Shown here: in pieces, positions 3,962-26,205 of the stretch | Layout: every line of letters starts with the position of its first letter | Position numbering within the stretch: position 1 is the first letter of the stretch | Assembly: GCA_002897735.1 (NCBI GenBank) | Contig: BDTW01000061.1 | Coordinates: 1-64,000 of the forward strand | Direction: 5' to 3' | Source of the DNA: a bacterium BMS3Bbin13 | Lineage (GTDB): Bacteria > Pseudomonadota > Gammaproteobacteria > 21-64-14 | DNA: 64,000 bases | Translations under genes and position numbers: made by a program | Notes under the pieces: generated by a model | What the model saw: the letters and a program-made list of their open reading frames with translations, nothing else | Told to the model about the DNA's origin: nothing | Databases searched by the model: none

Positions 3962-4687
3962 TTACAGTCGGAAGTGGTGCCCCAGGTACACTTCGCGCAC
4001 CTGCTTGTTGTTCAGGATCTCGTCGGGAGTGCCTTCGGCGATGACCCGACCGTCGTTGATGATATAGGCCCGCCCGCAGATCCCCAGGGTTTCCCGCACG
4101 TTGTGATCGCTCACCAGGACCCCGATCCCGCGCTCCTGCAGGTGCCCGATGATGCGCTGGATGTCGAGCAGGGACAGGGGGTCGACACCGGCGAACGGCT
4201 CGTCCAGGAGCATGAAGTGCGGCTCGGCGGCCAGCGCCCGGGCGATCTCCACGCGGCGGCGCTCCCCCCCCGACAGGCTCATGCCGGCCTGGTCGCGCAG
4301 GTGGGCGATGTGCAGTTCTTCCAGCAGGTCCTGGAGCCGGCCCTCGCGATCGGTGCGAGACAGTCCGCGCCGCGTCTCGAGGATCGCCAGGATGTTCTCG
4401 GAGACCGTGAGCTTGCGGAAGATCGAGGCCTCCTGGGGGAGGTAGCCCAGCCCGAGGCGCGCGCGTCGGTGCATGGGCAAGGGGGTGATGTCCTGATCGT
4501 CCAGTTGGATGTGTCCGCCGTCGCAGGGTACCAAGCCGACCAGCATGTAGAAGGAGGTGGTCTTTCCGGCGCCGTTGGGGCCGAGCAGTCCGACGACCTC
4601 GCCGCTCTCCACGCGCAACGAGACGCCGTTGACCACCCGCCGGCCGTGATACTCCTTGAGCAGGTCCTGTGCCGAAAGCCGGCTCAC
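3962..4687 (-). CDS. lptB: LPS export ABC transporter ATP-binding protein LptB
   Basis: Walker [18 protein letters not shown]; signature [27 protein letters not shown]. Confidence 0.97.
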
Positions 4688-5343
4688 GGCCCCGCGCCTT
4701 CCGGCGGGGCGGGTGTGCCCGGCGGGCCCCCCGGTTTCGTTCCCGGCTTGGCTTTCGGTTCGGCTTTCGACTTGGCTTCCGGTTTCGTTCCCGGTTTCGT
4801 CACTGATTCGGCTTCCGGGTTGCTTTCCGCCCCCTTCGGTTGCAGGGTGATTTCCACCCGCCCGCCCGCACCCCCCGCGGAGCCGGCCTTGACCACGTCC
4901 TGGTCACGGTCGTACTCGATGCGCGGTCCCTGGAAGCGGTTCTTGCCCTGCAGCAGTTGCGCGTCCTGTTCGAGTACGACGATACCGGCGCGCACATCGT
5001 AGTCGATCCGCCGCGCCGAGCCGGTGATCGGCCGGCCCTGCGCCTTGGGTTGCTCACGGAAGCGTGCCGGGTCGCCCTTCGCCACCATACGGGTGATCTT
5101 GTCCTGCTGGTCGTGGTGGACGGTCAGTGTGTCGGACCACAGCTGCATGCCGCCCTGGCTGAGGACCACGTGCCCGGTGAATACGCTCACTCCGGTATGC
5201 TCGTTGATGTCGGCGCGGTCGGCGGACAGGTGGATCGGCTGGTTGCGGTCGACGGGCGGGGCCGGTGCCGCCTGCACGGTGCACAGCGCCGCCGCCACCA
5301 CCGCGACCGCCGCCAGCAGCAGCTCAGGAATGCGCCTGGACAT
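4684..5343 (-). CDS. lptA: LPS transport periplasmic protein LptA
   Basis: [41 protein letters not shown]; followed by a K/P/G/E-rich tail; ATGA overlap with lptB. Confidence 0.92.
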
Positions 5344-5899
5344 AAGTACCCCGCACGCTGGAGAGCAGCACGACCCGGCCCCGCTTCAGATCGGCGCGCA
5401 TGCCGACGCCGCTCAGATCGATGCCGTCGCTGCGCAGGGTGACGCGCGCGGCGGTTTGAGCCAGATTGCGGCGGGGCCACACGACGAGGTCGCGGGTGAG
5501 GATGGCCACCGCGCGCCGCGTTCCGTGCGTCGCCCGGTCGATGTGTACCGTTCCGAGCAGGCGCACCTCGCCGCCGGCGTCCAGTACCTCGCCGCTCGCG
5601 GCGCGCACCACCCACGGCACTGCGTCCGGCTGCGGATACCAATGCAACAGCGGCATACTCAGCTCCGAGCGGTCCGGGGTAGGATAATGTACCAGTCGAT
5701 CGGCGCGCAGCCGGTAGTGCAGTGCGCCGGTCGCGTCGAACACGCGCAGGCGTACGCCCGAGAGCCGGTAGTCCGGCAGTTCCGGGCGTTGCGGCGCGCT
5801 CGGCACGAGACCGCGTTCGGCGTGCATCAGGAGCCACCCGGTCAGGGCCGCCCCGAGGATCAGCAGCAGGATCACCGGAAGGCCGCGGGAGTCGGTCAC
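5324..5899 (-). CDS. lptC: LPS export system protein LptC
   Basis: Single N-terminal TM segment followed by an LptC-like beta domain; position between kdsC and lptA; GTG start at 5899. Confidence 0.87.
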   Translation of the reverse strand: MTDSRGLPVILLLILGAALTGWLLMHAERGLVPSAPQRPELPDYRLSGVRLRVFDATGALHYRLRADRLVHYPTPDRSELSMPLLHWYPQPDAVPWVVRAASGEVLDAGGEVRLLGTVHIDRATHGTRRAVAILTRDLVVWPRRNLAQTAARVTLRSDGIDLSGVGMRADLKRGRVVLLSSVRGTYVQAHS

Positions 5900-11087: not shown

Positions 11088-11120
11088 TGGTGCGGCCGAA
11101 GGCCGCTACAATCCCTCCCC

Positions 11121-11440
11121 CCGATCCTCGCCGGATCGCCCGCCGGATCCCGGCCCCATACGGGCATCCCCGGATTGCGCTACGCTTATCCAGGCCACTA
11201 CGTCCATGTAGCCCGGATGCAGGCCGAAGGCCGAAATCCGGGGAACCGATCCTCGCCCTGTTCCTCGCCGGATCGCCCGCCCGATCCCGGCCCCATACGG
11301 GCATCCCCGGATTGCGCTACGCTTATCCAGGCCACTACGTCCATGTAGCCCGGATGCAGGCCGAAGGCCGAAATCCGGGGAACCGATCCTCACCCTGTTC
11401 CTCGCCGGACCGTCCGCCCGATCCCTGTCCCTCCCGGCTG
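11121..11440. repeat. Tandem about 137-bp unit with embedded GTAGCCCGGAT...ATCCGGGG palindromes (2 copies plus a partial third)
   Basis: 'ggccccatacgggcatccccggattgcgctacgcttatccaggccactacgtccatgtagcccggatgcaggccgaaggccgaaatccggggaaccgatcctc' begins at 11152 and again at 11289; a third degenerate edge lies at about 11380-11440. Confidence 0.9.
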
Positions 11441-16605: not shown

Positions 16606-16698
16606 TCGGGGCGTCGGCGGGTCGACGCGCGCTTTACCACAGTACCGGCCGCCGGGGGATCGGAGAAGCGGTACCGCGGGGTGGCCGGGGTATCCCAA

Positions 16699-17580
16699 GG
16701 GCGGGGCTCGCCCGGCCGACGCCGCCGCGCGGTTCCAACACCGCCGGTGCGCAGATCCACGACGCCGGCCGGGCGAGCCCGGCCCTACAGACAAGCGGAC
16801 CCGGCGGGCGAACCTTGGCACGTCGGGTTGCGTCAATCCGACGAACACCGCCGACAGACGTTCAGGCAGTCCCGGCCGGGCAAGCCCGTCGCCAACACCG
16901 GCCACCTGTAGGGCGGGGCTCGCCCCGCCGACGTCGCCGCGCGGTTCCAACACTGCCGGTGCGCAGATCCACGGTGTCGGCCGGGCGAGCCCGGCCCTAC
17001 AGACAAGCGGGCCCGGCGGGCGAACCTCGGCGCGTCGGGTTACCACGTCAACCCGACGAACACCGCCGACAGACGTTCAGGCAGTCCCGGCCGGGCAAGC
17101 CCGTCGCCAACACCGGCACCTGTAGGGCGGGGCTCGCCCCGCCGTCGTCGCCGCGCGGTTCCAACACCGCCGGTGCGCAGATCCACGGTGTCGGCCGGGC
17201 GAGCCCGGCCCTACAGACAAGCGGGCCCGGCGGGCGAACCTTGGCACGTCGGGTTACCGCGTCAATCCGACGAACACCGCCGGCGGACGTTCAGGCAGTC
17301 CCGGCCGGGCAAGCCCGTCGCTAACACCGGCACCTGTAGGGCGGGGCTCGCCCCGCCGACGCCGCTACGCGGTTCCAACACCGCCGATGCGCAGATCCAC
17401 GGTGTCGGCCGGGCGAGCCCGGCCCTACAGACAACCGGACCCGGCGGGCGAACCTTGGCATGTCGGGTTACCGCGTCAATCCGACGAACACCGCCGACAG
17501 ACGTTCAGGCAGTCCCGGCCGGGCGAGCCCGTCGCCAACACCGGGCCACGTGTACAAGGGTGGGCCTCGGCCCGCCGACG
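16699..17580. repeat. Tandem array of about 4 copies of a 212-214-bp composite REP-like unit plus a degenerate fifth edge
   Basis: 'gggcggggctcg' anchor at 16699, 16911, 17125 and 17339; each unit has three hairpins (GGGCGGGGCTCGCCCCGCC, GGCCGGGCGAGCCCGGCCCTAC, CCCGGCCGGGCAAGCCCG) separated by conserved spacer 'gcggttccaacac(c/t)gccg(g/a)tgcgcagatccac'. Confidence 0.93.
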
Positions 17581-17655: not shown

Positions 17656-18723
17656 TCAACGCACCCTTCGCAACGCCCACAATCCGATGACCAGAAGCAG
17701 CGTCGCCGGCGCCAGCGCGGTGACCGCGGGGTTGAGGCCGAGCAGCAGCCCCATGTATCCGGAGATCTGGCTGATCAGATAGAAGGCCAGCCCCACCGTG
17801 CCGCCGAGGGTTATGCGCAAGCCGGTGCTGACGCTGCGCAACGGACCGAAGAGGAACGGGATGGCCACGAGGATCATCGCCGTGGTGGCGAGCGGGATGG
17901 CGAGCTTGTTCCACAGGGCCAGTTCGTAGCGATCCGCGTTCTGCCCGTGCGCCTTCAAATAGCGCACGTACTCGAACAGGTCGGTCAGGGAGAGGCTCGG
18001 AATCGGCAGGATCAGCAGGTCCATCTGCTGTACGCGCAGGAACGAGCGCCACGGCATTCGCGGGATGTGTTCGACCGTGACGCCCCGACCCGAGAAGGTC
18101 TTGCGGACCACCCCGATCAGCATCCACCGGTGGCGGTTGAAGACGTCGGCGCGCCCGGCGTGGATGAAGGTGTGCAGTCGGCCTTCGGCGTCGAACTCGT
18201 AGAGGTCGATCCCCGCCGGGATGCGGTCGTGGCGGATGTCGCGAACGTTCAGGAAGCGTGTGCCGTCGCGGGACCAAAAGGCGTGTGCGGTGCGCAGATC
18301 GCTCGCCGCGCTGATCTCCAGCGTGCGCCGCGTCTGGGCGATCTGGTCGAGGGGCGGTGCCACGTATTGCGCCAGCGCCAGTGCGATCACCACGAGCACC
18401 GCACCGGCCTTGAGTACCGCCCAGCCCACGCGCCGCGCCGACACGCCGGTGGCCTGCATGGCGACCAGCTCGCCGCCGGAGGCAAGGGTCCCCAGCCCGA
18501 CGAGCGTGCCGAGCAGTGCGGTCACCGGCACCAGTTGCACGAGCCGCTCGGGCAGCGTGAGCGCGACGAACGCCAGCGCACTCAGCAGGTGATAGTGGCC
18601 GCGGCCGATATTGTCCAGTTCCTCCAGGAAGGTCTGCAGGCTGAACACCGAAGCCAGCAGGAGTATGACGATCAGCCAACCGCCGGCCACGCGCTCGATG
18701 AGGTAGCGGTCGAGCCGTCTCAC
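17656..18723 (-). CDS. lptG: Lpt-type ABC transporter permease, LptG family
   Basis: VRRLDRYLIERVAGGWLIVILLLASVFSLQTFLEELDNIGRGHYHLLSALAFVALTLPERLVQLVPVTALLGTLVGLGTLASGGELVAMQATGVS; GTGA overlap with lptF stop; 355 aa. Confidence 0.92.
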   Translation of the reverse strand: MRRLDRYLIERVAGGWLIVILLLASVFSLQTFLEELDNIGRGHYHLLSALAFVALTLPERLVQLVPVTALLGTLVGLGTLASGGELVAMQATGVSARRVGWAVLKAGAVLVVIALALAQYVAPPLDQIAQTRRTLEISAASDLRTAHAFWSRDGTRFLNVRDIRHDRIPAGIDLYEFDAEGRLHTFIHAGRADVFNRHRWMLIGVVRKTFSGRGVTVEHIPRMPWRSFLRVQQMDLLILPIPSLSLTDLFEYVRYLKAHGQNADRYELALWNKLAIPLATTAMILVAIPFLFGPLRSVSTGLRITLGGTVGLAFYLISQISGYMGLLLGLNPAVTALAPATLLLVIGLWALRRVR

Positions 18724-19814
18724 GGGTGCGCCTGCGCGGCGCCCGCGCGCCTGCGGCGTAGCGTGGCGAGCGGTTGGTGCCATGCCGTCAACGCCACCAG
18801 CGCCAGGGCCCCGGGGGCCAGCCAGACCCCGGGCAGCGTGCCGAGCACCCCTCGCCCGACCCAGACCTTGAGCATGATGTCGAGGCTGTAGTAGCCGGCG
18901 TAGACCAGCACCGCGACGAGCATCTTCGCGTAACGTCCCTGGCGCGGACGGGCGCGGCTCAAGGGGATCCCGAGGATCGCCAGGAGCACGGTGGAGAGGG
19001 GCGTCGAGAGTCGCCACTGGTATTCGGCGATATCGGGGGCGGTGCGCGAGGCGGCGAGCCGGCTCATGCTCGCCGCCTTGCGCTGGAAGCCGACCGGCTT
19101 CACGGGCGGTTCGTTCATGTGATAAGTGAGTCTCGCGACGCGCACGATGCGGTCGACTCCGCCGTCGCGCGAGAGGTCGTAGAGATGGACATCGCGCATG
19201 TGCAGCAGCGGCGCATCGTAGCGCGGATCGCGTTCCTGGGAGGCCCGCATCGCATACAGGACCTGCGTGCGACGGCCGTGTTCGCGCTGCATGAAGACGC
19301 GTTCGAGTCCGCCGGCCGCGGCGCGCCCGGCCGCGAAGATCACCCGCGTGCCCGATGCGTTTTCATTGAAGCTCCCGGGTTTGACGTCGCTGAGGCTGAA
19401 CTCCGCATTGGCCCGGGCCTTGAGTTGGTAGGATCGTTCATAGGACCAGGGCCGGACGTAGAAGGCCAGCACGGCGATCAGCACGGCGAAGGTCAGCGCC
19501 AGGTAGGAGACGGCACGCAGGACCTGGAGCGGGCTCACGCCGAGGGCGTGCAGCGCGGTCATCTCGCTGTCGGTGTGCAGGCGCCCGAGGGCGATGATCA
19601 CCGCGAGGTAGAGCGCGATCGGCAGCAGGACCTCCAGCGCGATATTGGTCTTGAGCGCGATCAGTTCCACCACCACGTTGGTGGGCAGCACGCCGTTGGC
19701 GGCCTGCGTAAGGAACACTGCGGCACTGTAGCCGGCGAAGATCGCGACCAGCGCCAGGGACAGGGCCAGCAGCGGCTTGTTGATCTCGCGGATCAGGTAA
19801 CGGGTGACGATCAC
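18720..19814 (-). CDS. lptF: Lpt-type ABC transporter permease, LptF family
   Basis: MIVTRYLIREINKPLLALSLALVAIFAGYSAAVFLTQAANGVLPTNVVVELIALKTNIALEVLLPIALYLAVIIALGRLHTDSEMTALHALGVS. Confidence 0.92.
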   Translation of the reverse strand: MIVTRYLIREINKPLLALSLALVAIFAGYSAAVFLTQAANGVLPTNVVVELIALKTNIALEVLLPIALYLAVIIALGRLHTDSEMTALHALGVSPLQVLRAVSYLALTFAVLIAVLAFYVRPWSYERSYQLKARANAEFSLSDVKPGSFNENASGTRVIFAAGRAAAGGLERVFMQREHGRRTQVLYAMRASQERDPRYDAPLLHMRDVHLYDLSRDGGVDRIVRVARLTYHMNEPPVKPVGFQRKAASMSRLAASRTAPDIAEYQWRLSTPLSTVLLAILGIPLSRARPRQGRYAKMLVAVLVYAGYYSLDIMLKVWVGRGVLGTLPGVWLAPGALALVALTAWHQPLATLRRRRAGAAQAHP

Positions 19815-19944
19815 GGTCCTGTCCGGTGGTGGGATCCGTGAGACGGACGCCGGTCGGTTTCCCGCCCCTATGCGCCTCGATCGGCGCGGTACCGCCGCCG
19901 GGCGCTATCGCATGCCGCCGGGGGCGGTTCCCGATCGGCGGATA

Positions 19945-21117
19945 CTACAGCGTCTTTTCGTAGACCCGGTAGCGTTTGTACGCGCTCGCCCCCATGTCCT
20001 CGAGGATGGCGCGCATGCGCCGGTTGGTCTCCAGGATCCAGGATAGCTCCATCATCCCGATTCCGCGCCGGCGTACCGGCGCGGCCAGCCCATCGATGAC
20101 CATGTAGGCCAGGGCCGGGCCCAGCAGGCTGTTCTGGTAGCATTTGCGCACACCGAGCAGCGGTACACGTCCGCTGGACGGGAACCGCACCTTGAGCCGC
20201 CACAGGAGCTTCAACCAGCCCAGCGGCAACAACCGGCCGTTCAGGTCGCGCGCCGCCTCGTTCAGGTTCGGAAGCGCCACCGCCATGGCCGCGGGGCGAC
20301 CGTCGACCTCGGCGATCTGGATGAAGTCGTCGTCGAGGAGCAGGCGCAGGTTGCGTCCCAGTTCCTCGAATTCCGCCGGCGTGAACGGGATGAACCCCCA
20401 GTTCTCCGACCAGGCGTCGTTGAAGATGTCGCGCAGTGTTTCGATCTCGCGCGCGAAGTCGCGCCGTCGCAACGGCCGGACCTGCACGCGCTTGTCGAGG
20501 CGTGCGGCGAGCGCGCGCAGGGCGGCGGGCGCCTCGGCCTCGGTGGTCAGCCGGTAGGCGAGCAGGTCCATGGCCTTGGCGTATCCGCAGGCCTCCACGC
20601 GCGGGCCGTAGTAACGGCGGGCGTGACCCATCATCACCATCGGCGGAGTCTCGAACCCCTCCACCAGGAGGCCCGATTCGTCGTTGATGGAGAAGCTGAA
20701 GGGTCCCCGTACCCGGCGCATCCCCTGCGCCCGCAGCCATTGCTCGGCGGTATCGAGCAGGGCTTGGAAGGTCTCCGCACGATCCTCCGCCTCGATCATC
20801 CCGAAGAAGCCGGTGGCGTCCCGATGGCGTTCCAGGTGCAGCCGGTCGACCTGCGCGGTGATGCGGCCCACCGTGCGTGTGCCGCGCCGGGCGATCCACG
20901 CGCGCCACTCGGCGTGCTCGAAGTAGGGGTTCTTCCGGGAGAGGTGCTCGCGGCGCTCCAGGATCAGCGGTGCGATCCAGGCGGGGTCGTCGCGGTAGAT
21001 CGCGTGCGGCAGGCGCAGGAAGCGCGCAAGACCGCGCCGCCCATCGACGGGCTCGATTCGCAGGGTGCCGGACTGGGTGCGCGATGTCGTCAATGCACGC
21101 CGGTCTGGGGCGGTCAA
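19945..21117 (-). CDS. bcerS: GNAT-fold N-acyltransferase, candidate bacterial ceramide synthase (bCerS-like)
   Basis: FLRLPHAIYRDDPAWIAPLILERREHLSRKNPYFEHAEWRAWIARRGTRTVGRITAQVDRLHLERH...GPFSFSINDESGLLVEGFETPPMVMMGHARRYYGPRVEACGYAKAMDLLAY, recalled as the family of the Caulobacter ceramide N-acyltransferase; adjacent to the other four pathway genes. Not confirmed by search. Confidence 0.72.
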   Translation of the reverse strand: MTAPDRRALTTSRTQSGTLRIEPVDGRRGLARFLRLPHAIYRDDPAWIAPLILERREHLSRKNPYFEHAEWRAWIARRGTRTVGRITAQVDRLHLERHRDATGFFGMIEAEDRAETFQALLDTAEQWLRAQGMRRVRGPFSFSINDESGLLVEGFETPPMVMMGHARRYYGPRVEACGYAKAMDLLAYRLTTEAEAPAALRALAARLDKRVQVRPLRRRDFAREIETLRDIFNDAWSENWGFIPFTPAEFEELGRNLRLLLDDDFIQIAEVDGRPAAMAVALPNLNEAARDLNGRLLPLGWLKLLWRLKVRFPSSGRVPLLGVRKCYQNSLLGPALAYMVIDGLAAPVRRRGIGMMELSWILETNRRMRAILEDMGASAYKRYRVYEKTL

Positions 21118-21448
21118 CGTGCGCGGGCCGGCGATTTCGGCGGGTCGCGGGGGAGATCGCGCGGGGCCATGCGGCCGAGGTGATACCGGCGCCCCTTCCA
21201 GAAACCGTTGACCATGTGCGTCCCGCCCCTCTCGTCGCGTGCCCGGTCCGGTATTCTACCGCGTACGCGAAGGATTGACTAAGATCGAGGGGCGGGATCC
21301 CCGGCGCCGCCATCGGTGCGCCCGGGAGGGGCGCCGGCCCGGTCATGGCCGCGAACCGGGTGTCCCGGCCGGCGGCCGCCCCGGGCGCGGTGGGGCGGGG
21401 GCTTGACCCGCTCGTATCGATCGTGAAAATACGTTGCTTCCCGGTAGG

Positions 21449-21478
21449 TTGGCTGACCTTGTATGGATATGCTACCAT
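21449..21478 (+). promoter_or_regulatory. Possible sigma70-like promoter upstream of the acyl-ACP ligase
   Basis: TTGGCT (21449-21454), 18 nt, TGcTACCAT extended -10 (21473-21478). Weak match. Confidence 0.3.
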
Positions 21479-21527
21479 CGCCTGCGGTTCTGCGAGGAGC
21501 AGCGGCGGGTTTTTGTCGGCGGGCGCC

Positions 21528-21550
21528 GCCTGCGGAGCGACTCCGCAGGC
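21528..21550 (+). other. Perfect 10-bp inverted repeat with 3-nt loop in the bcerS / acyl-ligase divergent intergenic region
   Basis: gcctgcggag-cga-ctccgcaggc; no U-tract follows. Confidence 0.6.
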
Positions 21551-21865
21551 CGATAGGAGGTCCGGGGCCGCTTCGGTGTGGATCCGCTCCGTGTCCGGTC
21601 CGGTGGGGCCGGGCGGCGGTGAGTCGGCCGAGGTGCGGCGAACAGGGAGCTTCGGGCATTTGTCAAACGGGTTTCGTGGTCTCGATTCTGCGCCGGTGGT
21701 ATGGTCTCGCTCCGACCGAGCGATCGCGCCGTGCATCCGGGGTCGTCCGGACCCGCTCGGCCGGGTCGCCCGGATCCGGGGGATTCAAGTTTCTGCGCGG
21801 GCCGTCGACCTATTCCCCGGCGTGCCGTATGCAAGCAATCGGAAGTTTTACAAGGAGAGCCGGAG

Positions 21866-23626
21866 GTGGGCGTAGAACCGACACCAACGACACACACATT
21901 GCCCTTGCGGGCGGCGGACTTCTCCAGCCTCGCCGAAGCCCTGGACTATGCGGCCGAGGGCGAAACCGGTGCCAATTTCTACACCGGCGGGGGGGAGTTG
22001 CAGACCGTACTCTCCTATCGGGAACTACGCCGGGAGGCGCGGCGCCTCGCGCGCCGGTTGTCGAGCCTGGGCCTCGAGCGCGGCGCGCGGGCGGCGCTGG
22101 TCGCCGTCACCGGCCCGGACTTTCTGCGCTTTTTCTTCGCCTGCCAGTACGCGGGCCTGGTCCCGGTGCCGCTGCCGGTCTCGATCCGCCTCGGCGGCCA
22201 TGGGGCCTATGTCGCGCAGCTTCGCAATCTGCTGCGCGGATGCCGTGCCTCGATCGCGATGGCTCCCGCCGGGCTGATGAAGTTTCTCGACGAGGCGGTG
22301 ATCGATGAGTTCGAGTTGCGCACCTACGGTGGCCCGGAGGTCTTCGATGCGTTGCCCGAGGCCGACGGGGTCCTGCGGCCGCTGGACCCGGACGAGATGG
22401 CCTACATCCAGTACACCTCCGGGAGCACGCGTTTCCCGCGCGGTGTGGTGATCACCCAGCGCCAGGTGCTCAGTAATTTGAGCAGCATCATCTGCGACGG
22501 AGTGCAGATCAACGCGCAGGACCGATGCATGTCCTGGTTGCCTTACTACCACGACATGGGGATGGTCGGTTTCGTGCTGGCGCCGATCGCCGCCCAGCGC
22601 TCGGTCGACTATCTGGACACCCATGATTTCGCGATGCGTCCGCGGCGCTGGTTGGAACTCATCAGCCGCAACCGCGGCACGATCTCGTTCAGTCCGCCGT
22701 TCGGCTACGAGTTGTGCGCCCGGCGCGTCTCCCGGGAGGATGCCGCGCGCTACGATCTGAGCACCTGGCGCGCGGCCGGGGTCGGGGCCGAGACCATCCG
22801 CGCCGAGACGCTGGAGCGCTTCGCCGAGGCGCTCGCCCCCAGCGGTTTCCGCCGCGAGGCGTTCCTGCCCTGCTATGGGATGGCGGAGTGCTCGCTGGGG
22901 ATCAGCTCCACGCCCCTGGGACGCGGTCTCGAGGTCGATCGGGTTGACGCGGACCATCTCGCCGCCGAGTACGTGGCGCGGCCGGCCGCGCCGGACACGG
23001 CGCGCGTCAGCGACTTCGTGAAATGCGGGCCGCCGTTGCCGGGTCACGAGGTGGTGATCCGCGATGCGCAGGGCCATCCCGTTCCGGAGCGCCATGCGGG
23101 CACCATTACCGTGCGCGGGCCGAGCGTGATGTCCGGCTATTTCGCGGATCCGGAGTTGACGCGTGCGAGTCTGTCGCCCGACGGTTGGCTCGACACCGGA
23201 GACGTGGGCTACATCGCCGACGGCAGCGTGGTCATCACCGGGCGCAAGTCCGACATGATCATCATCCGCGGGCGCAACATCTGGCCCCAGGACCTGGAGT
23301 ACCTGGCGGAGCAGCAGCCCGAGGTGCGCCCGGGCGACGCCTCCGCGTTCTCGGTCCCGGGACCGGGCGGGCGCGAGGTGGTGGTGCTCGTGGTCCAGTG
23401 CCGGGTCGGCGATCCCGCGCGGCGGGCGGCCCTGGTGCGGCGCATGCACCGGCTGATCCACGAAACTCTGGGGATCGACGGCGTCATCGAACTGGTCCCG
23501 CCCCATACCCTGCCGCGTACCTCCTCCGGCAAGCTCTCCCGCTCCGCGGCGCGTCGCGATTATCTCCAGCGCCTGGAGGAGAGCGAGCGCTCCGCGGGGA
23601 CCGCCGAAGCGGCCCTGGGCGGCTGA
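21866..23626 (+). CDS. Fatty acyl-AMP ligase / acyl-ACP synthetase (FAAL-like)
   Basis: YIQYTSGSTRFPRGVVITQRQVLSNLSSI, LPYYHDMGMVGFVLAPI, LPCYGMAECSLGISS, TGRKSDMIIIRGRNIWPQDLE; GTG start at 21866 preceded by AGGAG. Confidence 0.88.
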   Translation: MGVEPTPTTHTLPLRAADFSSLAEALDYAAEGETGANFYTGGGELQTVLSYRELRREARRLARRLSSLGLERGARAALVAVTGPDFLRFFFACQYAGLVPVPLPVSIRLGGHGAYVAQLRNLLRGCRASIAMAPAGLMKFLDEAVIDEFELRTYGGPEVFDALPEADGVLRPLDPDEMAYIQYTSGSTRFPRGVVITQRQVLSNLSSIICDGVQINAQDRCMSWLPYYHDMGMVGFVLAPIAAQRSVDYLDTHDFAMRPRRWLELISRNRGTISFSPPFGYELCARRVSREDAARYDLSTWRAAGVGAETIRAETLERFAEALAPSGFRREAFLPCYGMAECSLGISSTPLGRGLEVDRVDADHLAAEYVARPAAPDTARVSDFVKCGPPLPGHEVVIRDAQGHPVPERHAGTITVRGPSVMSGYFADPELTRASLSPDGWLDTGDVGYIADGSVVITGRKSDMIIIRGRNIWPQDLEYLAEQQPEVRPGDASAFSVPGPGGREVVVLVVQCRVGDPARRAALVRRMHRLIHETLGIDGVIELVPPHTLPRTSSGKLSRSAARRDYLQRLEESERSAGTAEAALGG

Positions 23627-23653: not shown

Positions 23654-24610
23654 TTGGGTCGCTCTCCGATCATCGCGTTGACCGGCGCCACCGGATTCAT
23701 CGGTGGCGCCGTCGCACGCCGCCTGTTGCGCGAGGGGTGGGAGGTGCGGGCCCTGTACCGGCCTTCCTCCCGGAGCAACCCCGTGGCGCGCGCCGGGCTG
23801 TCCTGGATCCCGGGTTCACTGGAGGACGCCGAGGCCCTGGCACGGCTGGTGGCGGGCGCAGATGCGCTCGTACACTGCGCGGGTGCCGTGCGCGGTGCCG
23901 GGCGGGATGTCTTCGACCGCGTCAACGCCGAGGGTGTTGCCCGTATCGCCGCCCGCGCCGCGGCGGCGCGGGTGCCGCGTTTCCTGCTGATGTCCTCGCT
24001 GGCGGCCCGAGAGCCGCAGCTCTCGCCGTACGCGGCGAGCAAACGCGCCGGCGAGGTTGCGCTGGCACGGGCGGCGGGTGCGACGGCATGGGTCGCGCTG
24101 CGCCCGCCGGCGGTCTACGGGCCGGGCGATCGTGAACTGCGGGCGCTGTTCCGTTGGATCGGTCGCGGCCTGCTGCCGGTGTTGAGCGGTGCCGCCGCGC
24201 GCTTCTCGTTGCTCTACGTGGACGACCTCGCCGCCGCGGTGGCCTGCTGGCTGAGGGAAGGGGGTGGCGAGGGACATGCCTTCGAACTGCACGATGGGCG
24301 TCCCGGCGGCTATTCGTGGGCGGACGTGGCGCACGGTGCGCAGGACCTGCTCGGACGCCGGGTGCGTCGCGTGCCGGTGCCGGAGGCGGCGCTGAAGGTC
24401 GCGGCGGCGCTCAATCTGGCGCTGGCCGTAACGGGGTACCGCCCCATGCTCACGCCGGGCAAGGTGCGTGAGTTGCGCCATCCGGACTGGGTCTGCGACA
24501 ACGCCCCGTTCCGCGAGGCCACGGGTTGGCGCCCGGAGGTCGGGTTGGAGGAAGCGCTGCGCCGTACGTTTGGTTGGGGCGGGCGGTCCGGACCGGGGCG
24601 CGGCGCGTGA
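23654..24610 (+). CDS. cerR: NAD(P)-dependent epimerase/dehydratase (extended SDR), candidate ceramide reductase CerR
   Basis: IALTGATGFIGGAVARRLLREGWEVRALYRP (GxxGxxG Rossmann), YAASKRAGE (YxxxK), RPPAVYGPGDRELRALFRWIGRGLLPVL; TTG start. Function inferred from neighbourhood. Confidence 0.75.
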   Translation: MGRSPIIALTGATGFIGGAVARRLLREGWEVRALYRPSSRSNPVARAGLSWIPGSLEDAEALARLVAGADALVHCAGAVRGAGRDVFDRVNAEGVARIAARAAAARVPRFLLMSSLAAREPQLSPYAASKRAGEVALARAAGATAWVALRPPAVYGPGDRELRALFRWIGRGLLPVLSGAAARFSLLYVDDLAAAVACWLREGGGEGHAFELHDGRPGGYSWADVAHGAQDLLGRRVRRVPVPEAALKVAAALNLALAVTGYRPMLTPGKVRELRHPDWVCDNAPFREATGWRPEVGLEEALRRTFGWGGRSGPGRGA

Positions 24611-24701: not shown

Positions 24702-24947
24702 ATGAGAGACTACGATGAAATTCTGACCGAGGTGTACCAGGGCCTGAAGGCCTCCGGTCAGGACGGGGTGCGGTTGGACGAGGATACCGAGCTGGTGGGC
24801 GATCTGGGCCTGGACTCCGTTCAAGTCATGGAGATGCTGCTCGAGGTGGAGGACCGCTTCGGTATCTCCATCCCGATCAACATCCTCGCCGACGTCGTCA
24901 CGATCCGTGATCTGGCCGTGCAGATCCGGCGCCTGACCGGCGACTGA
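24702..24947 (+). CDS. Dedicated acyl carrier protein
   Basis: LVGDLGLDSVQVMEMLLEVEDRFGISIP; phosphopantetheine Ser39 (codon 24816-24818). Confidence 0.93.
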   Translation: MRDYDEILTEVYQGLKASGQDGVRLDEDTELVGDLGLDSVQVMEMLLEVEDRFGISIPINILADVVTIRDLAVQIRRLTGD

Positions 24948-24951
24948 GTCG

Positions 24952-26205
24952 ATGGCCCTGTTCGACAAGTTCTCCCGCCTCGCCGCCGCGCGCCGCGACC
25001 TCGCCGGCTACGGGGTGAATCCGTTCGGCGTCGAGGTGGAACGCGTCCTCTCGGCGACCGAGGGTGAGATCGCCGGCCGGCGCACGATCCTGGCCGGTAC
25101 GAACAACTATCTCGGACTGAGCTTCGATCCGGAGTGTATCGCCGCGGCGCGCGCGGCGCTGCTCGCGGAGGGCACCGGTACCACCGGTTCGCGCATGGCG
25201 AACGGGACCTTCACCGGGCACTTGGCCCTGGAGCGCGAGCTGGCCGAATTCTACAGGCGCCGCGCCGCCATCGTGTTCTCCACCGGCTACCTCGCCAATC
25301 TCGGCATCCTCTCCTCCCTGACGGCCCCCGGCGATGTGTTGCTCGTGGATGCGGATTGCCACGCCAGCATCTATGACGGCGGGCGGATGAGCGGCGCGCA
25401 GGTCATCCGCTTTCGCCACAACCAGCCTGAGGATCTGCGCAAGCGCCTGTTGCGCCTCGGCGAGCGCGCCGCCGACGCGGTGATCGTCGTCGAAGGCCTC
25501 TACAGCATGCTCGGTGATCGAGCGCCGCTGGCGGCGCTCGCCGAGGTCAAGCGCGAGTGCGGCGGCTACCTGGTGGTCGATGAGGCGCACTCCCTGGGCG
25601 TCGCCGGCGAGCACGGCCGCGGCGTGGCGGAGGAGGCCGGCGTGGAGGCCGACGTGGATTTCGTGATCGGCACCTTTAGCAAGAGCCTGGGGGCGACCGG
25701 CGGGTTCTGCGTCAGCGACCGCCCGGAGTTGGACGTGATCCGCTATGCGAGTCGCCCGTATATCTTCACCGCCTCGCCCTCGCCGTCGGTGGTCGCCTCG
25801 ACCCGCGCCGCGCTCGGGATCCTGCGCCGGCGCCCCGAGTTACGCCGCCGCCTGTGGGACAACGCCGGGCGCCTCTATCACGGGCTCGAGGCGCTCGGCT
25901 TCCGGCTCGGCCCCGAACCGAGCCCGGTGGTGGCCGTGTTACTCGAGACCAAGGCCCAGGCGCTGGCATTCTGGGCGGGTCTGATCGAGCGCGGCGTCTA
26001 CGTCAACCTGATGATTCCGCCGGCCACCCCGAACGGCACGTCGCTGGTGCGATGCAGCGTCAGCGCCGCCCATGAGCCGGAGCAGATCGACGCGCTCTGC
26101 GCCGCGTTCGCCGAACTGCGCGGGATCGCCGCAACGCCCGGGCACCGCGCCTGCGGGGCGGACCTCGCCGTCGCGTCGGCCAAGACGTCCCGCGGCGGCG
26201 GTTGA
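24952..26205 (+). CDS. spt: Serine palmitoyltransferase-like alpha-oxoamine synthase
   Basis: NYLGLSFDPE, GTGTTGSRMANGTFTGHLALERELAEFY, DEAHSLGVAGEHGRGVAE, PLP Lys244 in GTFSKSLGATGGF (25681-25683), RPYIFTASPSPSVVAS, and ERGVYVNLMIPPATPNGTSLVRCSVSAAHEPEQID C-terminal signature. Confidence 0.85.
   Translation: MALFDKFSRLAAARRDLAGYGVNPFGVEVERVLSATEGEIAGRRTILAGTNNYLGLSFDPECIAAARAALLAEGTGTTGSRMANGTFTGHLALERELAEFYRRRAAIVFSTGYLANLGILSSLTAPGDVLLVDADCHASIYDGGRMSGAQVIRFRHNQPEDLRKRLLRLGERAADAVIVVEGLYSMLGDRAPLAALAEVKRECGGYLVVDEAHSLGVAGEHGRGVAEEAGVEADVDFVIGTFSKSLGATGGFCVSDRPELDVIRYASRPYIFTASPSPSVVASTRAALGILRRRPELRRRLWDNAGRLYHGLEALGFRLGPEPSPVVAVLLETKAQALAFWAGLIERGVYVNLMIPPATPNGTSLVRCSVSAAHEPEQIDALCAAFAELRGIAATPGHRACGADLAVASAKTSRGGG

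Follow-up and report, generated by a model that had tools for sequence, protein, structure and literature searches.

Here, we identified a second LptFG permease pair, encoded by lptF2 and lptG2, that is embedded in a cluster of ceramide synthesis genes and belongs to a separate clade, which is referred to as S-type. It is probable, judging from gene content, phylogeny and residue comparisons, that this alternative permease, LptF2G2, loads a ceramide-based lipid onto a shared Lpt bridge while a separate LptFG carries LPS. The DNA analyzed (the window) is the whole stretch of 64,000 nucleotides from bacterium BMS3Bbin13.

Gene organization of the ceramide locus

The features of the window considered in this study are as follows:

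3962..4687, minus strand: lptB, ATPase, presumed shared partner (coding model; gene order)
4684..5343, minus strand: lptA, periplasmic bridge, presumed shared partner (coding model; gene order)
5324..5899, minus strand: lptC, presumed housekeeping bridge subunit (coding model; gene order)
17656..18723, minus strand: lptG2, S-type (sphingolipid-linked) LptG permease, 355 aa (PF03739, E=1.4e-69; S clade)
18720..19814, minus strand: lptF2, S-type LptF permease, 364 aa (PF03739, E=3.2e-65; S clade)
19815..19944, minus strand: bCerS-lptF2 gap, 130 bp (site-pattern scan)
19945..21117, minus strand: bCerS, GNAT-fold acyltransferase (bacterial ceramide synthase; yghO in E. coli), true start perhaps 21093
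21118..21898, no strand: divergent intergenic region (promoter-like sites, both strands)
21899..23626, plus strand: aasR, fatty acyl-AMP ligase / acyl-ACP synthetase (PF00501, 4e-61; coding model), in an open frame that runs from 21701
23654..24610, plus strand: cerR, NAD-dependent epimerase-like ceramide reductase (PF01370, 8.8e-29)
24702..24947, plus strand: acpR, dedicated acyl carrier protein, 81 aa, with a GLDSVQ motif
24952..26205, plus strand: spt, serine palmitoyltransferase (alpha-oxoamine synthase; PF00155, 2.7e-52; context)

All five ceramide genes are present, and the order of the locus is lptG2 < lptF2 < bCerS facing aasR > cerR > acpR > spt. A preliminary description of this DNA had placed lptG, lptF and the GNAT gene on one and the same strand, and the three open reading frames were verified at exactly the positions given there, on the minus strand. 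The lptF/lptG overlap claimed there was read directly at the junction (...CCCGTGAGACGG), where the GTG start and the TGA stop share the letters GTGA. The interval of about 130 bp said to lack a terminator proved to be 130 bp long, and neither terminator-like nor promoter-like sites were found on its minus strand; in the sister genome (G001) the corresponding gap is 48 bp. Two promoter-like sites (0.4 expected) were found in the divergent region, at 21281-21253 on the minus strand and 21403-21430 on the plus strand.

Both permeases are full-length matches to the Pfam family LptF_LptG (PF03739), far over the cut-off (model positions 1-353 and 1-349 of 353), and over nearly their whole length they resemble solved LptF and LptG chains, 9doh_F (5e-39) and 6mjp_G (1e-64), respectively. 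The bCerS gene is single-copy in each genome, and the window protein is 45-83% identical to bCerS proteins of ceramide clusters, the values being 45-62% for homologues located in aasR/cerR/acpR/spt clusters. E. coli yghO has been given as the counterpart of CC_1154 (PMC9386255).

The window also holds one lptC-lptA-lptB set (3962-5899), 12 kb from lptF2-lptG2, whose members were assigned from the gene order kdsD-kdsC-lptC-lptA-lptB-rpoN-hpf. Some features of the surroundings were also observed. Directly downstream of lptG2 (16691-17544) there are four tandem copies of a 214-bp unit, three of them at least 94% alike, and the interval from the mla operon to the bolA/murA genes contains two to three tandem 137-bp repeats (11114-11431). 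Downstream of lptG2 in the sister genome (L008 12138-13298) is a gene for a protease of the Trypsin_2/PDZ type (DegP/HtrA-like).

A paralogous pair in a ceramide-linked clade

Two alternatives had been left by the preliminary description: the only lptFG copy of the genome had been relocated beside the ceramide genes, or the pair is a sphingolipid-linked paralogue. The former could draw on pepA, which was reported absent from the locus and indeed sits on another contig (C12). We carried out the proposed search for a second lptFG in the window genome (2.69 Mb in 62 contigs, 97% complete) and found three PF03739 matches: the window lptF and lptG, and a further lptG at the start of contig C9, where only the contig boundary cuts it short, followed by a GGDEF/EAL gene. 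The sister genome, which belongs to the same genus and is the only other genome of the order, has two complete lptFG pairs, one after bCerS (C5) and the other beside pnp, rpsO, truB, rbfA, infB and nusA, then a GGDEF/EAL gene (C53). Since the C9 gene and this canonical pair share the same following gene, the C9 gene is the housekeeping lptG, whose lptF partner was presumably lost in an assembly gap. The window pair is thus a paralogue. The relocation of a sole copy was ruled out by the C9 gene and the two full pairs of the sister genome, and we assign it practically no probability.

We reconstructed phylogenetic trees for both permeases. In the LptF tree, 46 ceramide-linked sequences were split from 24 housekeeping ones by one branch (support 100/99, 100% of bootstrap trees). 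The ceramide-linked LptG set also split off cleanly (support 99/98, all bootstrap trees) in a tree that left out three rows (a truncated one and two long ones, of which one, from Desulfobacterales, was extremely long); with all rows included two changes were needed, which were traced to this Desulfobacterales row, and a smaller LptG tree gave the same split. The S clade is set apart from the pairs beside pepA, holC and valS, and the housekeeping pair of the window's genus, adjoining pnp, lies outside it as well. Members of the S clade span Proteobacteria (including Nitrosomonas, Nitrosospira, Azotobacter, Pseudomonas, Erwinia and E. coli), Nitrospirota, Nitrospinota and Desulfobacterota, with Desulfobulbaceae and a Rokubacterium also represented. 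The breadth of the clade fits horizontal spread together with the ceramide genes. Clusters of ceramide and S-type lptFG genes were noticed in genomes of Desulfobulbaceae, Nitrospirota and Nitrospinota (L137, L142, L126 and L129), which suggests the presence of sphingolipids in these groups.

Homologues of bCerS were detected in 24 of 387 genomes of the class, and 19 of these had a close homologue (at least 45% identity). An lptFG pair was located within ~7 kb of bCerS in 16 of the 18 close-homologue genomes with testable contigs, and at ~14 kb in one more; the others were a genome with bCerS at a contig edge and G295, in which no lptFG pair is nearby. Among 80 named bCerS loci, 57 contained an lptFG pair, with a median separation of 0.9 kb, and no canonical-type LptFG was found in these 80 stretches; of the 49 loci whose flanks are full, 39 contained a pair. 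The housekeeping pairs of the same close-bCerS genomes adjoin pepA, holC and valS. The linkage between bCerS and lptFG is not due to chance. On the other hand, G295, Rhodanobacter and Salinisphaera have bCerS and only canonical LptFG, which means that the S-type pair is not required for ceramide makers. We also noticed a third lptFG pair in G262 (L062 5307-10323), which lies beside its own LptB-like protein (62% identity) and forms a long branch next to the S clade.

Relation to known systems and headgroup genes

The LptF2/LptG2 concept is not new. LptC2, LptF2 and LptG2 have been named in the Caulobacter cluster and proposed as phosphosphingolipid movers (Olea-Ozuna et al. 2024, PMC11324152), a paper in which the LptF2/LptG2 idea covers N. 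eutropha, A. vinelandii and P. luteola as well as Caulobacter. As in the window, the ceramide gene cluster of Caulobacter crescentus contains an additional LptFG pair (CC_1156/CC_1155). Two of the published examples, N. eutropha (L107) and A. vinelandii (L125), are represented in the S clade; by gene content, and by clade through these two organisms, the window pair is, at the level of sequence, of the LptF2/LptG2 kind. In contrast to Caulobacter, neither LptC2 nor a dedicated flippase is found beside the window pair, and the locus lacks the phosphoglycerate headgroup genes, just as the genus lacks an orthologue of the headgroup NTase.

The NTase gene usually follows bCerS and is present in 18 of 18 other close bCerS genomes (at least 318 bits), while the best match in G000 and G001, representing the window's genus, was below 20 bits. 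No other phosphoglycerate headgroup (CPG) genes were found at the window locus, a statement that concerns the locus content only. Elsewhere in our sample, S-type lptFG without headgroup genes was observed only in enterobacterial loci, within the stretches seen.

In E. coli, 4044 of 5426 complete genomes (~75%) carry at least 80% of the lptF2-lptG2 / spt-acp-cerR-aasR / yghO cluster, the RefSeq labels of which are LptF, LptG, serine palmitoyltransferase and YghO. Like the window pair, the E. coli (BL21-type) lptF-lptG falls in the S clade and lies beside spt-acp-cerR-aasR and yghO with no headgroup genes; unlike the window pair, which directly follows bCerS, it is next to spt, beyond YghQ-like and YtfJ-family proteins. 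The cluster with its own lptF-lptG is located between yghQRST and glcC (L168 6357-14138). One sampled E. coli genome has yghO only, with an IS1 element beside it, and another has only 0.3 kb of yghO. For E. coli BL21, AasR, AcpR and Spt have been characterized and yghO was listed as an acyltransferase (PMC9386255), in a paper in which the words 'lptF' and 'transport' do not occur.

Compared with the LptB2FG(C) LPS exporter (E. coli, Klebsiella, Pseudomonas and Vibrio; PDB 6mhu, 6mit, 5x5y and 6mjp), the window pair has the same fold family over the full length, the tandem lptF-lptG arrangement and the coupling-helix glutamates, but it differs in belonging to a separate clade and a different operon and in changed residues at the LptF R212, R223 and K30 and LptG K40 positions. 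In the comparison with canonical LptF/G that the preliminary description had called for, these positions differed, whereas the LptB contacts were kept. The glutamates LptF E84 and LptG E88, which are needed to bind LptB in E. coli (PMC5082905), are conserved in 45 of 46 and 46 of 46 S-type sequences, respectively, and the window pair has Glu at both positions. Their conservation favours the sharing of LptB by the S-type permease. At the jellyroll exit site, LptF R212 is Arg in 19 of 23 canonical sequences and in none of the 46 S-type ones, with Leu in the window LptF2. R223 is retained in 17 of 23 canonical versus 6 of 46 S-type sequences; position K30 is basic in at least 16 of 23 canonical sequences and Ser in 35 of 46 S-type ones, including the window LptF2, which also carries an Arg121/Tyr125 signature. 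The housekeeping pair of the genus shows the canonical signature residues LptF R30, R212, Y222 and R223. At the LptG position K40, where E. coli LptG contacts the lipid A 4'-phosphate (PMC6744409), all 46 S-type sequences have an acidic residue, Asp or Glu (Asp in the window), a point made weaker by the variability of canonical LptG at K34/K40 outside enterobacteria. Substitutions of R212 have been found to allow E. coli LPS export without LptC via direct LptF-LptA contact (PMC9972910). Because R212 is naturally absent from the S-type permease, a reduced need for LptC is predicted.

Retention without lipid A synthesis and the proposed function

Ammonia oxidizers offer a test case for the substrate. 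A complete genome (G340), taken as Nitrosomonas from its closest named loci, was searched for LpxC and LpxB, and neither was found; it keeps LptD, and its only lptFG pair is of the S-type and adjoins bCerS. LpxK is present in this genome even though LpxC and LpxB are gone. It was reported previously that, among the lipid A genes, N. europaea has only lpxK and Nitrosospira multiformis only lpxA (PMC3087551). Nine more ammonia oxidizers (five Nitrosomonas and four Nitrosospira) have two PF03739 matches each, i.e. one pair, and all five that were included in the tree were S-type. Keeping a permease and an outer-membrane translocon without lipid A synthesis is expected if the pair carries another lipid.

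We also considered the idea that LPS has been lost wherever a single S-type pair occurs, which was rejected since G157, G278 and G140 keep LpxC and LpxB. These three genomes, which also have LpxK, contain the S-type pair as their only LptFG, and it is possible from their gene content that S-type LptFG may carry LPS as well. Of the possible dedicated sphingolipid export module put forward in the preliminary description, the paralogue and its ceramide linkage held up, and its strict dedication to sphingolipids is made less certain by these genomes. In G133 and G360, LpxC and LpxK are present and an LpxB match is absent; they were not used as LPS-less cases owing to the presence of LpxC and LpxK. 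A possible substitute for LpxB in G133 is offered by ELM1-like proteins (PF06258) encoded in its ceramide locus.

The S branch travels with ceramide genes and is the sole branch kept in LPS-less bacteria, and for these reasons it most likely ships sphingolipids. The competing idea that the S-type pair is a second or bifunctional LPS exporter, co-inherited with ceramide genes and moving LPS, perhaps in a variant form, in addition to a sphingolipid or in its place, appears unlikely to us: it would account for the three genomes that have lipid A genes and S-type LptFG only, and for a fold and LptB contacts that are those of LptFG, but it has to face the fact that bacteria without lipid A synthesis have kept the S-type pair and no other, the systematic loss of basic residues of the LPS path and the tight ceramide-gene linkage across phyla. 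Still less probable, and in our opinion quite improbable, is that the pair exports not ceramide itself but another lipid whose synthesis depends on the ceramide genes or on genes next to them (e.g., a glycolipid or aminolipid). The lack in the window's genus of the NTase found in all other close bCerS genomes, and the enterobacterial clusters that likewise show no headgroup genes, would agree with such a lipid; yet the only constant partner of the pair is the ceramide pathway itself.

In the sphingolipid loading route that we prefer, LptF2G2 would assemble with the shared ATPase LptB. CerR would act first, at the periplasmic leaflet of the inner membrane, from which LptF2G2 would extract the ceramide-based lipid and hand it over to the LptA-LptD bridge for transit to the outer membrane, and LPS would be carried by the separate housekeeping LptFG. 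This route is built on the paralogous pair, its clade and ceramide linkage, the LptB-contact residues, the changed LPS-path residues and the retention in LPS-less bacteria; from these we infer the substrate, the use of shared LptB, LptA and LptD and the reduced need for LptC. A broader reading is offered only tentatively: the S-type pairs could represent an ancient second class of Lpt permease that was spread horizontally with ceramide genes, delivers sphingolipid onto shared LptB/LptA/LptD without LptC, and is the sole Lpt permease left after lipid A loss, for example in ammonia oxidizers.

Apparently new with respect to the open-licence literature are the cross-phylum clade, the residue signature, the version lacking headgroup genes and the ammonia-oxidizer test case. 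The route of bacterial sphingolipids to the outer membrane has been stated to be unknown (PMC11324152, PMC11087976), and a permease clade that is tied to ceramide genes and kept after lipid A loss is a concrete candidate for this route. If this is true, the Lpt bridge would serve for lipids in general, with loading permeases that can be exchanged.
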